Below, in pieces: positions 18,241-26,123 of a stretch of DNA of 64,000 bases (positions within the stretch are counted from its first letter, which is position 1; each line of letters starts with the position of its first letter). A model generated the notes under the pieces. It ran no database searches and was not told the origin of the DNA. It was given only the letters and a program-made list of their open reading frames with translations. The stretch lies in contig JAHBVV010000011.1 in the NCBI GenBank assembly GCA_019637335.1, forward strand, positions 1-64,000, given 5' to 3'. The translations under genes were made by a program, and so were the position numbers. Source of the DNA: Candidatus Hydrogenedentota bacterium (GTDB lineage: Bacteria; Hydrogenedentota; Hydrogenedentia; Hydrogenedentales; JAEUWI01).

Positions 18241-18579
18241 GGCGTGTGCATAGATTGGTTAGCGTGGATCGCCAGGGCCTCCCTGGCGATCCACGTTCTT
18301 TTCGGGGAGAGCCCGTCGCATGAGCCGGTGTTTGTCGCAGGCGCGTCCAACCGGTCCACTCCGTGCAACCGGTCCACTCCGTCCAACCGGTCCACTCCGT
18401 CCAACCCGTCCAACCCGTCCAACCCGTCCAACCCGTCCAACCCGTCCACTCCGTCCACTCCGTCCAACCCGTCCACTCTGTCCACTTGCCTGACCGCCAG
18501 CCTCCTTCTCCCCTTGAACTGTCCGCCGTGCTGCGCCTATCATGCCATCTCGCATTGACCCCAACCCAAGGAGTACCCC
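18241..18579. repeat. Gap with long 9-bp tandem repeat (about 18352-18487)
   Basis: After a GC-rich hairpin around 18265-18297 (AGGGCCTCCCTGGCGATCC arms, possible terminator for paralog 3), about 15 copies of a 9-bp unit of the CCGTCCAAC/GTCCACTC type run without interruption. No gene is seen. Confidence 0.75.
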
Positions 18580-20520: not shown

Positions 20521-20829
20521 ATGGAGAAGCGTAAGCCCCACTACACGCTGTCTCGCATAAAGTAGCTTATTGAGGCGGGCCAGTATCGACTCACCAAGAC
20601 CGCGCTACAGTGCGCCGCGCGGGATTTTGGATTTCTCTCCTCCGCTGAGGTGGCTACGCAATTGCTTGCCATCGAGCATTGGAGTTTTTACAAGTCGATG
20701 ACTGCCGTACACGACAGTGGCCTTTGGCAAGATGTTTACCGTCCATCAATAAACGGCAGAGAAGCCTACGTGAAGGTTCAAATTCTGAATGATATGACGG
20801 TTGTCATATCCTTTAAAGGACGGGAGTAG
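20521..20829 (+). pseudogene. mqsR: MqsR-like RNase toxin interrupted by TAG
   Basis: The frame from ATG 20521 encodes an MqsR homologue of normal length (102 codons with the stop): MEKRKPHYTLSRIK, then TAG at 20563-20565, then LIEAGQYRLTKTAL, DFGFLSSAEV, FYKSMTAVHDSGLWQDVYRPS and VVISFKGRE. MqsR is a GCU-specific mRNA interferase of the RelE fold; the FYKSMT and WQDVYRP blocks are the family hallmarks. One amber codon at position 15 stops translation; the rest is free of frameshifts, which points to a recent loss or a base-call error. TAG ends several ordinary genes here, so readthrough is not expected. Confidence 0.8.
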
Positions 20830-20836
20830 TAGGCCG

Positions 20837-21250
20837 ATGCGGGAAAAAAAGTGGACAGACTGCCCCGCGTGCGGCGCGCGCGGAAGTATGCGCCAACGGG
20901 CGGGTCAGTCGGAACGAATTCAGCCCGCGGGCTATCCTCCGCTTGACATAAGCGAGCTGGACGGTCAGTTTTGTTCGGCGTGTGGCGATGGCTTCTGGTC
21001 AATGCGGTCTGAGCGGCGTATCACGCGACTGCTGGCCGCACACAAGGCGGAATTCGACGCGGGACGCGTTGTAGCCGCGGAACTGGCCAGCGTTCGGGAA
21101 GGCGCCGAAGCGTTGGGCGTTACGGTGCAGGCCATACACCGGATGATGGATGAAGGGCGGTTGCGGTATGTACTGGCCGGAGGAACCCGGCTGCCCATCC
21201 GGAAGGACCTCGAAGCGAAGGCCAGGGCGCGCGGCCGTACGCCGGTCTGA
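20837..21250 (+). CDS. mqsA: MqsA-family antitoxin
   Basis: A 137-residue antitoxin. The N-terminal zinc domain shows CPACGARG (about residues 8-15) and CSACGDGFW (about 42-50), giving the two Cys pairs of MqsA. The C-terminal half ends in a helix-turn-helix of the excisionase/MerR type (VREGAEALGVTVQAIHRMM, GGTRLPIRKDLEAKA) rather than the Xre-type domain of E. coli MqsA. It binds and blocks MqsR and represses its own operon. It starts 7 nt after the mqsR stop. The frame is intact while the toxin is interrupted. An upstream in-frame GTG at 20801 exists, but the ATG next to MREKKWTDC fits family starts. Confidence 0.8.
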   Translation: MREKKWTDCPACGARGSMRQRAGQSERIQPAGYPPLDISELDGQFCSACGDGFWSMRSERRITRLLAAHKAEFDAGRVVAAELASVREGAEALGVTVQAIHRMMDEGRLRYVLAGGTRLPIRKDLEAKARARGRTPV

Positions 21251-21532: not shown

Positions 21533-21606
21533 AAGTGTCGTTTGAGGGTGCCCCCGTAGGCTGGTGAAGGATGGCGCCCGTGGCGCGCCGCACGTGCTTC
21601 AACTTG

Positions 21607-21654
21607 TACAGATGTAAAATTTGTCTTGACAATATTTACAAATGTAAATATACT
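21607..21654 (+). promoter_or_regulatory. blaI-type promoter with twin BlaI operators
   Basis: TTGACA (21626-21631) and TATACT (21649-21654) are 17 bp apart. Two 10-bp dyads of the BlaI/MecI TACANNTGTA type lie at 21607-21616 (TACAGATGTA) and 21637-21646 (TACAAATGTA). The second sits in the spacer and would block RNA polymerase. Autorepression by the BlaI protein is expected, lifted when the M56 peptidase acts. Confidence 0.9.
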
Positions 21655-21684: not shown

Positions 21685-22077
21685 ATGGCGCCATTGATAT
21701 CGGAAGCGGAAGCACAAGTTTTGCAGGCCCTGGTGGAGATGGAGGAGGCGACAGCCCGCGAATTATATGCGGTACTCGCGGAATCCACAGGCTGGGCGCA
21801 GCCCACGGTAGTCACATTCTTGCGGCGGCTCGAGGCCAAGGGGCTGGTGTCTCACAGCAAGGAGAAGGGCCAGCGGGCCTTCCTCTACCGGCCCAACCAG
21901 CGCGGGCGCTCGGCGGGCCGGGAGCAGGTGAAGAACCTGGTGAACCGGGTCTTTGGCGGCAACCCCGTGCCGCTTATGTCCATGTTTGTGGAAGAGGAAG
22001 CGCTCACGAAAGAGCAGATCACGGCGCTGCGGCAGTTGCTCGATGAGCAGGAAAAAAAGAAGGGAGGCAGGGTATGA
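21685..22077 (+). CDS. BlaI/MecI/CopY-family repressor
   Basis: A 130-residue penicillinase-repressor-like protein: ISEAEAQVLQALVEM at the start and a winged helix with STGWAQPTVVTFLRRLEAKGLVSHSKEKGQRAFLYRP. The C-terminal helices (TKEQITALRQLLDEQEKK) should dimerise. It should bind the two operators upstream and be cleaved when the neighbouring M56 protein senses a signal. AAGGAGG at 21673-21679 lies 5 nt before ATG 21685. Another ATG at 21661 is at the predicted transcription start and could give 8 extra residues as a leaderless form. It overlaps the next gene by 4 bp. Confidence 0.9.
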   Translation: MAPLISEAEAQVLQALVEMEEATARELYAVLAESTGWAQPTVVTFLRRLEAKGLVSHSKEKGQRAFLYRPNQRGRSAGREQVKNLVNRVFGGNPVPLMSMFVEEEALTKEQITALRQLLDEQEKKKGGRV

Positions 22078-24389
22078 ACCGCATGATCGAAGCGCTCAAC
22101 GGGATTGCGGCGGCATGGTGGGATTGGACGGTGGCGTCCACGTGGCAGGGGGCCTTGCTTCTGTCGGTAGTCGGGGTGATCTTGGCCGCGGGCAGGTCGC
22201 TGCGGCCGGGCTTCCGCTACGGCCTGCTGCTGGTGGTGCTGCTGAAGTTCGCCTTGCCGCCGGTCTTCGGCGTGGCCTACGGGTTTTCGGATCTGCTGGC
22301 GCGCGCATTCAGCGGTGTCCCCGCACCGGCGTTGAACACGGACGTGTACGAAGTTGTGGTTGCGCCGCCTCCGCCAGCAACAGCGACGGTGCCTGCGCCC
22401 GCTCCCCTGGCGCGTATAGCGCCTCAAGCGCCCGCGCTTTCTCCGCTGGCGTGGTTGCTGGTCCTGGAGGTGGCGGGCGCCGGGATGCTCCTCTTCCTGA
22501 TCGCGCGCCAGTGGCGTGTGGCGAGGCAATTACTGCGCGGGGGCGTCGACGGCGATGAACCCTTGCGGCAGCGCTTTCGGGCGGCTGTCCGCGCCATGAA
22601 GCTGCGGCGCACGCCCCGGCTCTGTCTCAGCGACGGGGCCAGCGCGCCGCAATCCGGCGGCATCCTGCGTCCCTTCGTTCTGCTGCCTTCGTGGGCCGCG
22701 GCGATGCCAGCGGACGAGCTCGAAATCCTCCTCGCGCACGAACTCGCCCATGTGCGGCGCAGGGACGCGCTGGTCAACGGTTTCCAGGCTGCGGCACAGG
22801 CACTGCTCTGGTGGAACCCCGCCGTGTGGTGGCTGAACCCCCGCATCCGCGAGGAACGCGAGTTTTGCTGCGACGACCTGGTGCTCGCGCGCGGGATAGC
22901 CAGCGGGGAGGCCTATTCGCGGGCCTTGGTCAATGTTGCGGAACGTGTTTCGTTGCCCGCGTCTCCCTGGGCCATGGCGGGCATGGCGGACAACTTTCGC
23001 GCGCTCGACCGGCGCGTGCGGATGGCGCTGGACGGCGGACATGGACGCCGAGGCTGGGGGCACTACGGGGCGATGGTGGTCGTAGTGCTGGTGGCGGGGT
23101 GGGTACTGCCTGGCGCGACTGATGAGGCGACCGATGAACGCAAGGAGGGGTTCGATCCCGTCGGGAAGAGCGCCGATGAGACGTCAATTGATTCTGTTAC
23201 GGTTAACGATGCGCCGGGAAGGGCCGATGCGGAGGAGGAACTGGTGATCGCGTCGGAAGGTACAGCCGTGCCGGAACCCGAGAATTTCTTGCCCGGACTC
23301 GAGTATCAAATCCTGAACATGACCGCGGAAAGAATTTCCAGGGATCACGTCAAGCCGGGTGTCATGGGACCGTTCGGGCCGCGGGACCACCGGATGACGG
23401 TTTTTGAGGAAGTCAGCTTGACGCTCCACTCGGCGCAGCATGCCGTGGACATTAATATCAAGGCAAAACGACTGGAACACACCACAGGCAGCGACAGCGA
23501 CGGCCTGATGGTGTGGGAAGGCGATGTGGAGGCGCAATTCGCCGAGTTTACCGCACAGGCCGAGCGCCTGGAGTTTACCTCAACCTTTCTGTTTTTCAAT
23601 GCGAATCTCTTATTGAGGGACTTCGGCACGGTCCAAGCTGAGCAGATTCGCGTGGACCCAGTAGCCAGGCGCATCGATGTACTGAACGGCACCGTTGACG
23701 AGGCGCGCCTGAAGGAAGCCTTCGGCGAGAACGCCACGTACGCACCCAGGGGCGAATGGCTGACACTGCCCTTTGCCGTCGTTCGGCAGATTGTGGTCGA
23801 TGCGTGGATAATGGAGGTTGACCGTGATGCGGACCTGAAATTGCCCGATGCGATGAGGCGCGTATCCGAGAACGACAGCCCTGCGTCAAGAACCGTTACG
23901 GGCGGAAGTGAGCAGGATCCAAAGGCTCTTGTTGCGGGAACCGCGAGTAACGAGGAGTGGTCCGTTTGCAAAGCGGGAATCATGGAACTTGTCGACGCGG
24001 GCCGCGGCAAAATTGTAGGTGCGCCCAAGTTAATCACCCTTGACGGACAGGAGGCGACGATTTCGATTGGGACCGAAGTTCCATACACGCAGGATGACGA
24101 GATCGCTTATGAATTTGAAGGTATGAAATTGGGTGTTCTGGTTTCGGTTGTAACCGCGGAAAATGGCTCGGAAGGCTTCGACATCAGGCTCAACTACACG
24201 CGCACAACGCAACAGGACCCTGACGCCACGCCTCCGGTTTTTGAAACCGCCGAGACGGCGCATTCCATTCGGTTGGAAAGTATTCACGATCCGAGATGGA
24301 TTTACTTCATGACGGTGCGGCCGGGAGCGCGTCATGAGTTGGTGGCGTTCCGTGTTTCGCTGGTCCGGCCGGGCGGTCAACCCGCATAG
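22074..24389 (+). CDS. BlaR1-like M56 metallopeptidase fused to LptA-like and secretin-like modules
   Basis: A 771-residue membrane protein. Residues 1-150 have three to four hydrophobic helices. The M56 domain contains HELAH at 222-226 and the later EREFCCDDLVLA motif (third zinc ligand Glu and following Asp). A further membrane segment lies at about 325-345 (VVVVLVAGW). The extracytoplasmic part is unusual. About 430-560 looks like an OstA/LptA-type strand repeat (VWEGDVEAQFAEFTAQAERLEF). About 570-771 resembles the secretin core: QIVVDAWIMEVDRDA, then GKIVGAPKLITLDGQEATI and SIGTEVPY. M56 proteins cleave BlaI-type repressors after sensing an envelope signal; here sensing may be linked to outer-membrane assembly. 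No beta-lactamase gene is nearby. Confidence 0.8.
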   Translation: MNRMIEALNGIAAAWWDWTVASTWQGALLLSVVGVILAAGRSLRPGFRYGLLLVVLLKFALPPVFGVAYGFSDLLARAFSGVPAPALNTDVYEVVVAPPPPATATVPAPAPLARIAPQAPALSPLAWLLVLEVAGAGMLLFLIARQWRVARQLLRGGVDGDEPLRQRFRAAVRAMKLRRTPRLCLSDGASAPQSGGILRPFVLLPSWAAAMPADELEILLAHELAHVRRRDALVNGFQAAAQALLWWNPAVWWLNPRIREEREFCCDDLVLARGIASGEAYSRALVNVAERVSLPASPWAMAGMADNFRALDRRVRMALDGGHGRRGWGHYGAMVVVVLVAGWVLPGATDEATDERKEGFDPVGKSADETSIDSVTVNDAPGRADAEEELVIASEGTAVPEPENFLPGLEYQILNMTAERISRDHVKPGVMGPFGPRDHRMTVFEEVSLTLHSAQHAVDINIKAKRLEHTTGSDSDGLMVWEGDVEAQFAEFTAQAERLEFTSTFLFFNANLLLRDFGTVQAEQIRVDPVARRIDVLNGTVDEARLKEAFGENATYAPRGEWLTLPFAVVRQIVVDAWIMEVDRDADLKLPDAMRRVSENDSPASRTVTGGSEQDPKALVAGTASNEEWSVCKAGIMELVDAGRGKIVGAPKLITLDGQEATISIGTEVPYTQDDEIAYEFEGMKLGVLVSVVTAENGSEGFDIRLNYTRTTQQDPDATPPVFETAETAHSIRLESIHDPRWIYFMTVRPGARHELVAFRVSLVRPGGQPA

Positions 24390-24964: not shown

Positions 24965-25183
24965 ATGACGAAGCTGCTGGAGAAGGCCTTTGCCGAGGCC
25001 GCGAAGCTGCCCGAGGAGGCGCAGGATCGCATCGCTGCGCAACTGCTCCAAGAGCTGGCGGACGAAGCGAAGTGGGACACTTCATTTGCCGCCTCCGCTT
25101 CCCAACTCGAGCGGCTTGCGGCCGAGGCTCTGGAGGAGTACCGGGCTGGTCGAACTCTGGAGTCGGGGTTTGACGAGCTTTGA
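24965..25183 (+). CDS. Antitoxin of a RelE/ParE-type pair
   Basis: A 72-residue acidic helical protein (MTKLLEKAFAEAAKLPEE, AAQLLQEL, EEYRAGRTLESGFDEL) of the kind encoded before RelE-like toxins. The C-terminal ESGFDEL tail probably wraps the toxin. AAGGAGG lies 8 nt before the ATG. Its stop shares bases with the TTG start of the toxin gene (TTGA). The pair sits inside an attC-bounded cassette and is the only complete toxin-antitoxin pair seen in the window. Confidence 0.8.
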   Translation: MTKLLEKAFAEAAKLPEEAQDRIAAQLLQELADEAKWDTSFAASASQLERLAAEALEEYRAGRTLESGFDEL

Positions 25184-25449
25184 ATTCGCATGTCACTGCG
25201 GAATTCCGCCGCTTATTTATGAATCTCCCGAACGAGGTGCGTCAGCGCGCACGCCACAGCTACCTGCTCTGGAAGGAGAACCCGGCTCATCCCGGTGTTC
25301 AGTTCAAGCGGGTGCACCGCCGCCAGCCCATTTACTCGGTGCGGATCGGTATCGATTGGCGCGCTGTCGGCCTTCGGCAGGGGGAGACGATTATTTGGTT
25401 CTGGATCGGTTCACACGCTGAGTACGACGCCTTGCTCAAGCGTCTTTGA
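25180..25449 (+). CDS. RelE/ParE-family toxin, intact
   Basis: An 89-residue protein with the RelE-like fold: FRRLFMNLPNEVRQRARHSY, WKENPAHPGVQFKRV, YSVRIGIDWRAVG and WFWIGSHAEYDALL. This matches the cytotoxic translational repressor subgroup, whose members usually cleave mRNA. Translation appears to start at TTG 25180, overlapping the antitoxin stop, which would keep toxin production low and coupled. The attC-like site begins 16 nt after the stop. Residues conserved in the subgroup (H, R, Y and the terminal EYD) are present. Confidence 0.8.
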   Translation: MNSHVTAEFRRLFMNLPNEVRQRARHSYLLWKENPAHPGVQFKRVHRRQPIYSVRIGIDWRAVGLRQGETIIWFWIGSHAEYDALLKRL

Positions 25450-25831: not shown

Positions 25832-25879
25832 AGTGAGAAAAATAAGCGGAGAGGCGTTAACGACGGCGGCGTCAGCCAC
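25832..25879 (-). pseudogene. DUF3368 PIN-domain toxin cut to about 15 codons
   Basis: A GTG at 25879, overlapping the end of the UPF0175 gene by 8 bp, begins VADAAVVNASPLIFL. V-x-N-A-S-P-L-I-F-L is the N-terminal signature of DUF3368 PIN-like toxins, which normally follow UPF0175 genes. Similarity stops after 15 codons, where esterase-like sequence in another frame takes over. The toxin has therefore been deleted almost completely. Confidence 0.6.
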
Positions 25880-26123
25880 GGGAGAGCTCACGGTCGAGGT
25901 CGTCAAAATCTACCTGAAATGAATCCCTTCCCATCCGGGCCAGCGCCAGGAGGAAGTCAGTCCGGCACATGCCCGCGACCTGTGCGGCGATTTCCTGGGA
26001 GACTTTGCCGCTCTCATACCAGGTGACGGCGGCCGCGAGCCGTAACTCACCGGGAAAGTCCGCCGGTGAAAGGCGCAACGCGCCCAGCACACCTTCTGGA
26101 AGTTCGACAGTCATCGTAGTCAT
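25872..26123 (-). CDS. UPF0175-family antitoxin
   Basis: An 83-residue protein: VELPEGVLGALRLSPADFPGELRLAAAVTWYESGKVSQEIAAQVAGM, then TDFLLALARMGRDSF and DLDREL. UPF0175 proteins have a ribbon/helix DNA-binding fold and act as antitoxins of DUF3368 PIN toxins. The frame is complete, but its partner gene downstream retains only its first codons. It may now be silent, a self-regulating leftover, or a protection against related toxins. Confidence 0.8.
   Translation of the reverse strand: MTTMTVELPEGVLGALRLSPADFPGELRLAAAVTWYESGKVSQEIAAQVAGMCRTDFLLALARMGRDSFQVDFDDLDRELSRG

Follow-up and report, generated by a model that had tools for sequence, protein, structure and literature searches.

The window, the whole 64,000-nucleotide stretch of Hydrogenedentota DNA analysed here, carries a blaI-type gene that overlaps a gene for an M56 peptidase with a secretin-like C-terminal tail (Table 1). 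On balance, the pair is probably a BlaI/BlaR1-type cassette that uses a look-alike of envelope machinery as its sensor and works as a self-amplifying envelope-stress switch. That an M56 peptidase with a secretin-like end is encoded here had been proposed in a sequence-only reading, and the open reading frame, the matches to PF05569 and PF00263, the predicted fold and two congeneric orthologs all agree with it.

Table 1. Coordinates of the cassette, its promoter region and the predicted domains of the fusion protein (window positions; res, residues of the fusion protein).
Feature	Position	Strand	Basis or remark
Upstream BlaI-type box TGTACAGATGTAAA, one mismatch	21605..21618	.	30 bp from second box
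Sigma-70-type promoter TTGACA-17-TATACT	21626..21654	+	perfect BlaI box within spacer
Perfect BlaI-type operator TTTACAAATGTAAA	21635..21648	.	in promoter spacer
BlaI/MecI-type repressor, 130 aa	21685..22077	+	PF03965 E=2.7e-28, NCBIfam, MecI alignment
M56 peptidase - Lpt-like - secretin-like fusion	22074..24389	+	771 aa; ATGA start/stop overlap with blaI
M56 domain	22152..23024	+	PF05569; catalytic motifs compared with BlaR1; hydropathy
Last transmembrane helix, res 331-349	23064..23120	+	hydropathy peak; topology by BlaR1 analogy
LptA/LptC/OstA-like beta-jellyroll (predicted), res 403-566	23280..23771	+	AlphaFold2 pLDDT 79, Foldseek
Secretin-core-like domain, res 567-771	23772..24386	+	PF00263 at 641-735; fold; without VPxLGDxPxxGxxF loop

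The N-terminal part of the fusion protein matches the Peptidase_M56 profile of Pfam (PF05569, E=4e-35, residues 27-317), and every M56/BlaR1 motif tested is present: HELAH at 222-226, D231, E263xxxD267 and R313/R314, the counterparts in BlaR1 being H201EXXH, D210, E242xxxD246 and R293/R294 (PMC9834060). The spacing between the second histidine and the glutamate is 37 residues, equal to that of BlaR1 (PMC9834060). Hydropathy peaks near residues 20, 50, 125 and 331 agree in position with the four helices of BlaR1, and by this agreement the tail beyond the last helix should be extracytoplasmic, i.e. periplasmic. A transpeptidase or beta-lactamase domain, and hence a penicillin-binding sensor, was absent in the Pfam search of the protein, and the BlaR1/MecR1 equivalog model NF000326 reached 63.6 bits against a cut-off of 400. 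The NCBIfam matches to blaR1, PilQ, GspD and MshL, all below cut-off, coincide with the places of the Pfam domains. The GC content declines along the gene, being 69% for the M56 part and 56-58% for the tail.

The blaI gene has AAGGAGG ahead of its ATG and overlaps the M56 gene by 4 bp. Phe101 of its product aligns with the P1' Phe102, the cleavage residue of S. aureus MecI/BlaI, and this residue, the PF03965 domain and the TACA..TGTA operator together mark the product as a probable BlaI/MecI-type repressor. The perfect box TTTACANNTGTAAA occurs once in the 7.16 Mb genome, with about 0.03 expected per genome from base composition, and it is likewise single in the genomes of the two congeneric species (G001 and G002), again in the blaI-M56 promoter. 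Both of these promoters keep TTGACA, with CATAAT and TATAGT, and have another, imperfect box 29-30 bp farther upstream. A wider regulon, outside the operon, was rejected, as in three of four genomes operator-like sites with two mismatches do not outnumber those of a reversed-pattern control (25 vs 61, 43 vs 72 and 53 vs 70). G002 has 136 such sites and its control 82; several of the 136 are TTTACACGGGTAAA, and they may represent a repeat family or the site of another regulator.

A downstream cargo gene as the regulated target was also discarded, since the loci have no gene in common downstream of the cassette; at the ortholog in G001 (L035) the operon ends with the M56 gene, and a convergently oriented gene follows. 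Neither a beta-lactamase nor a PBP gene lies beside the cassette, and no Lpt gene was found among the neighbours checked. With the perfect box only at its own promoter and no shared downstream gene, the anatomy points to a self-regulating cassette of two genes without an obvious other target, and the uniqueness of the operator makes the circuit small and easily tested. What is oddest about the system is that it has no further perfect operator, which may mean that the protease itself is the effector. Genes resembling toxin-antitoxin components flank the cassette (20801-21250, 25180-25449 and 25872-26123), their types being MqsA-like (below cut-off), ParE-like toxin and UPF0175, and a low-complexity repeat (NRSTPSN/NPSNPSN in one frame) is found at 18244-18500 between two Gfo/Idh-type genes.

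The sensor tail is predicted to combine an LptC/LptA-like sheet with a clipped PilQ-type secretin core. The Secretin profile PF00263 matches residues 641-735 with 29.7 bits (cut-off 27.5), as the sequence-only reading had anticipated, and a three-row profile of the tail retrieved PilQ and pIV chains among PDB sequences at E~4e-4. The tail models were built on three-row alignments. For residues 397-771 the AlphaFold2 model (pLDDT 71) matched in Foldseek both LptD/LptA/LptC and the secretins RcpA, pIV and GspD with probability near 1, thus agreeing with the fold that had been proposed; its TM values over the whole model are low, since each domain matches targets of its own. When residues 403-566 were modelled separately in order to locate the Lpt signal (pLDDT 79), all 32 of the 32 top PDB matches were LptD, LptC or LptA, with TM values for LptC of 0.74-0.75 by target length and an rmsd of 2.8-3.8. 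The proposed LptA/OstA-type region is therefore backed by its predicted fold but not by Pfam, as neither PF03968 nor PF06835 matches the fusion protein. STN and Secretin_N domains were likewise not detected in the Pfam search, i.e. the core appears without N-domains.

The amphipathic helical loop of secretins, which we take to be the motif VPxLGDxPxxGxxF, is absent from the fusion protein and from both orthologs, and is kept by the other secretins of the genome (L199-L205), e.g. TPILGDAPLVGWLF; in the six distinct ones it was recognized three times by regular expression and otherwise read by eye. Standalone secretins of Verrucomicrobiota have the loop as well. Solved secretins enter the outer membrane by a beta-lip together with this highly conserved loop (PMC6532946, PMC8134430), and its absence suggests that the core of the fusion protein is probably a soluble domain rather than a pore. 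A genuine secretin pore of the outer membrane, anchored in the inner one through the M56 part, would accord with the PF00263 match and the secretin topology, but is very improbable with the insertion loop missing here and in the orthologs while present in the genome's own secretins (PMC6532946, PMC8134430), and with no N-domains detected; a pore-forming role was consequently rejected.

Two congeneric species, G001 (L035, 962 aa) and G002 (L036, 703 aa, JAJRPE010000556.1), have the same arrangement of blaI - M56 - Lpt-like - secretin, the PF00263 score being above the cut-off in L036 (29.4 bits) and weak in L035 (14.9). This conservation excludes chance or a chimeric contig. An assembly or annotation artefact that fused two genes is hardly credible: nothing was found in its favour, apart from the fall in GC along the gene, and it is refuted by the same fusion in three separately assembled genomes, similar fusions being found in another phylum. 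In the M56 part the two orthologs are 70% and 54% identical to the window protein, against 37% and 30% in the tail, the faster change of the tail being as expected of a sensor. Silent sites between the orthologs are saturated in the tail and not in the M56 part, for which reason dN/dS of the tail was dropped as a test of selection. A search with the tail through 68 genomes of the phylum gave matches confined to the same genus, so the exact Lpt-secretin tail is narrowly distributed. The lower GC of the tail and the silent-site saturation limited to it may reflect a tail exchange by recombination; the G001 ortholog (L035:4120-7005) carries an extra, degenerate secretin-like repeat ahead of the Lpt-like part; and residues 403-430 of the window protein resemble a remnant of that repeat.

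Outside the phylum, further secretin-tailed M56 proteins next to blaI were found in Verrucomicrobiota, relatives beside blaI being what the sequence-only reading had named as support. Secretin is the commonest Pfam family among 70 M56 tails of a wider search, with eight members, the G002 ortholog included. Six Verrucomicrobiota loci (L061, L067, L068, L073, L082, L124) encode M56 and secretin domains above cut-off in one frame, two more fusions above cut-off come from the same Verrucomicrobiota class (L228, L234), and weaker cases occur at loci that end early (L212, L213). A TACA..TGTA box lies upstream of these fusions wherever the region is readable (L067 sits at a contig edge and its upstream region is unreadable), and a BlaI frame accompanies most of them. 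By home-made profiles 12 of the 31 best M56 frames of that class look secretin-tailed, an upper figure because the profiles were partly built from such tails and five of the twelve (L216, L210, L232, L214, L222) are without a Pfam secretin match. In some of these genomes a strict TTACANNTGTAA marks the M56-secretin locus too, as the sole site in G068 and G070 and as one of two in G069 and G357.

For the secretin label, three changes are required on the M56 tree, which has 105 rows (mean of 14.2 with shuffled labels), and the starred branches force three, although the tree was made by a quick method, has long branches and yields a change count that cannot separate gain from loss. The fusions sit on at least two further M56 branches in Verrucomicrobiota. 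In the secretin-core tree the Verrucomicrobiota tails that were included join the standalone secretins of that phylum (support 100/100), and the window family is placed beside the PilQ-like L201 of its own genome (92/87, on a very short branch). Since the tails group with local standalone secretins, independent (convergent) captures of secretin cores by M56 proteins are the simplest reading, the Verrucomicrobiota proteins apparently being a separate fusion event; common ancestry of the tails of the two phyla was rejected, as the tree puts the Verrucomicrobiota tails with their local secretins. The domain order had been regarded as undescribed, and no paper on M56, secretin and BlaR1, or on peptidase M56 and secretin, was found in the open-licence literature searched, but M56-secretin proteins lacking the Lpt-like part are thus not restricted to this genus. 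The M56-secretin architecture may be listed in domain databases.

Within the phylum, M56 tails are of very many kinds (HEAT, LRR, carboxypeptidase-regulatory, Ig-like and STN domains), and the tail of L059, the closest M56 protein from beyond the genus, is unrelated. Such diversity, and the different tail of L059, imply that a new type of sensor sits here on a known receptor chassis. It also follows from L059 that tails are exchangeable, and that a secretin-like tail need not imply a secretin-related ligand. Generic tail swapping, in which M56 receptors would acquire any periplasmic domain available and the secretin piece would sense something unrelated or be a decaying passenger, would suit this variety, the fast substitution, the tail-only saturation of silent sites, the lower tail GC and the degenerate extra repeat of one ortholog. 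It is nevertheless rather doubtful, given an open frame and a recognisable secretin core in three species, and a secretin that has been joined to M56 repeatedly and retained across a whole Verrucomicrobiota clade. The origin of secretin-type tails on several branches suggests that they have a use on which selection can act. Tails of other M56 proteins showed further features: weak STN/secretin N0-like repeats in two of Hydrogenedentota (two in L050, G000:C7:176266-177129, and apparently four in L083), an ExbD/TolR-like stretch in L210, L214 and L216 of Verrucomicrobiota (two of three below the Pfam cut-off), and, among Phycisphaerae proteins (L076, L089, L094), repeats in L076 that by eye resemble secretin N-domains.

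In the envelope-stress switch that we favour, BlaI would occupy the two boxes over the promoter and repress blaI-M56, as the anatomy of the region suggests. The M56 protein would span the membrane with four helices, exposing a zinc-protease domain to the cytoplasm and, by analogy to BlaR1, the tail to the periplasm. There the tail may bind a client from the envelope, the likeliest candidates being secretin subunits not yet assembled and intermediates of lipid/LPS transport; binding would switch on the protease, BlaI would by homology be cut before its conserved Phe, and the operon would be derepressed. As the genome has a single perfect operator, derepression may chiefly yield more of the receptor/protease itself, and a further target might be a substrate of the protease or a binding partner of the tail. 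It is thus plausible that the protein reports on envelope or secretion state, as had been proposed. Possible sensed partners are encoded in the genome, namely an LptD-like protein on C6, the only PF03968 match there, and seven other secretin-domain matches (six distinct). Against the switch stand the exchangeable tails, as shown by L059, and the operator that marks its own operon only, so that the classical circuit from sensor to target is missing.

This same feature speaks for a rival account, in which the protein is mainly an effector and not a reporter: its tail would anchor the protease to assemblies of secretin or Lpt, or would itself serve as a ring-like scaffold, and the BlaI loop would only set the dose. 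The perfect repressor box marks this promoter alone in three species, the strict TTACANNTGTAA marks the M56-secretin locus in several Verrucomicrobiota genomes too, the operon of L035 closes with the M56 gene, and the loci lack a common downstream cargo gene. Yet the membrane separates the cytoplasmic protease from a periplasmic client, the close kin BlaR1 works by cutting its repressor (PMC9834060), and weaker operators would escape a search for perfect boxes, which leaves the effector role a tenable but unlikely account. Returning to the sensory switch, a wider generalisation may be ventured with caution: an undescribed class of receptors for envelope stress that recurs in both Hydrogenedentota and Verrucomicrobiota, in which local secretin cores, repeatedly captured by BlaI-linked M56 proteases and deprived of pore function, would monitor the assembly of secretins (type IV pilus or type II secretion) or of Lpt by homotypic contact, in a closed self-inducing loop. 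We regard this as a tentative idea that is unlikely to hold. If the tail senses the state of secretins or LPS transport, a transmembrane protease route for envelope surveillance would be at hand.

To our knowledge, the sensing of beta-lactams is nearly the only function described for BlaR1-type receptors. The cassette shares with BlaR1/MecR1-BlaI/MecI the M56 gluzincin HEXXH...E with its spacing, four hydrophobic helices as predicted from hydropathy, and an adjacent repressor with the cleavage Phe and TACA..TGTA operators over the promoter. It differs in that an Lpt-like and secretin-like tail replaces the penicillin-binding sensor, in that the perfect operator is only its own, and in that no beta-lactamase/PBP gene adjoins it in a host that encodes outer-membrane machinery. 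With PilQ-type (type IV pilus) secretins and phage pIV, its best sequence matches, it has the core sequence and fold in common, but N-domains are not detected, the insertion loop is absent and the core is fused behind an inner-membrane protease; secretins are exported proteins of their own, whereas here the secretin domain follows an M56 protein with four predicted helices. The predicted fold of residues 403-566 is that of the LptC/LptA/LptD-N (OstA) beta-jellyroll, unaccompanied by a Pfam sequence match. A known bacterial response to mislocalised secretins is the Psp response, which uses PspA/B/C/F and has with the present system the theme of secretin trouble in the envelope in common. A further likeness is to the Verrucomicrobiota M56-secretin proteins, which also join both domains in one frame, behind a TACA..TGTA box and mostly a BlaI frame, but have local-secretin tails with no recognised Lpt-like part, and some of which keep the insertion loop.
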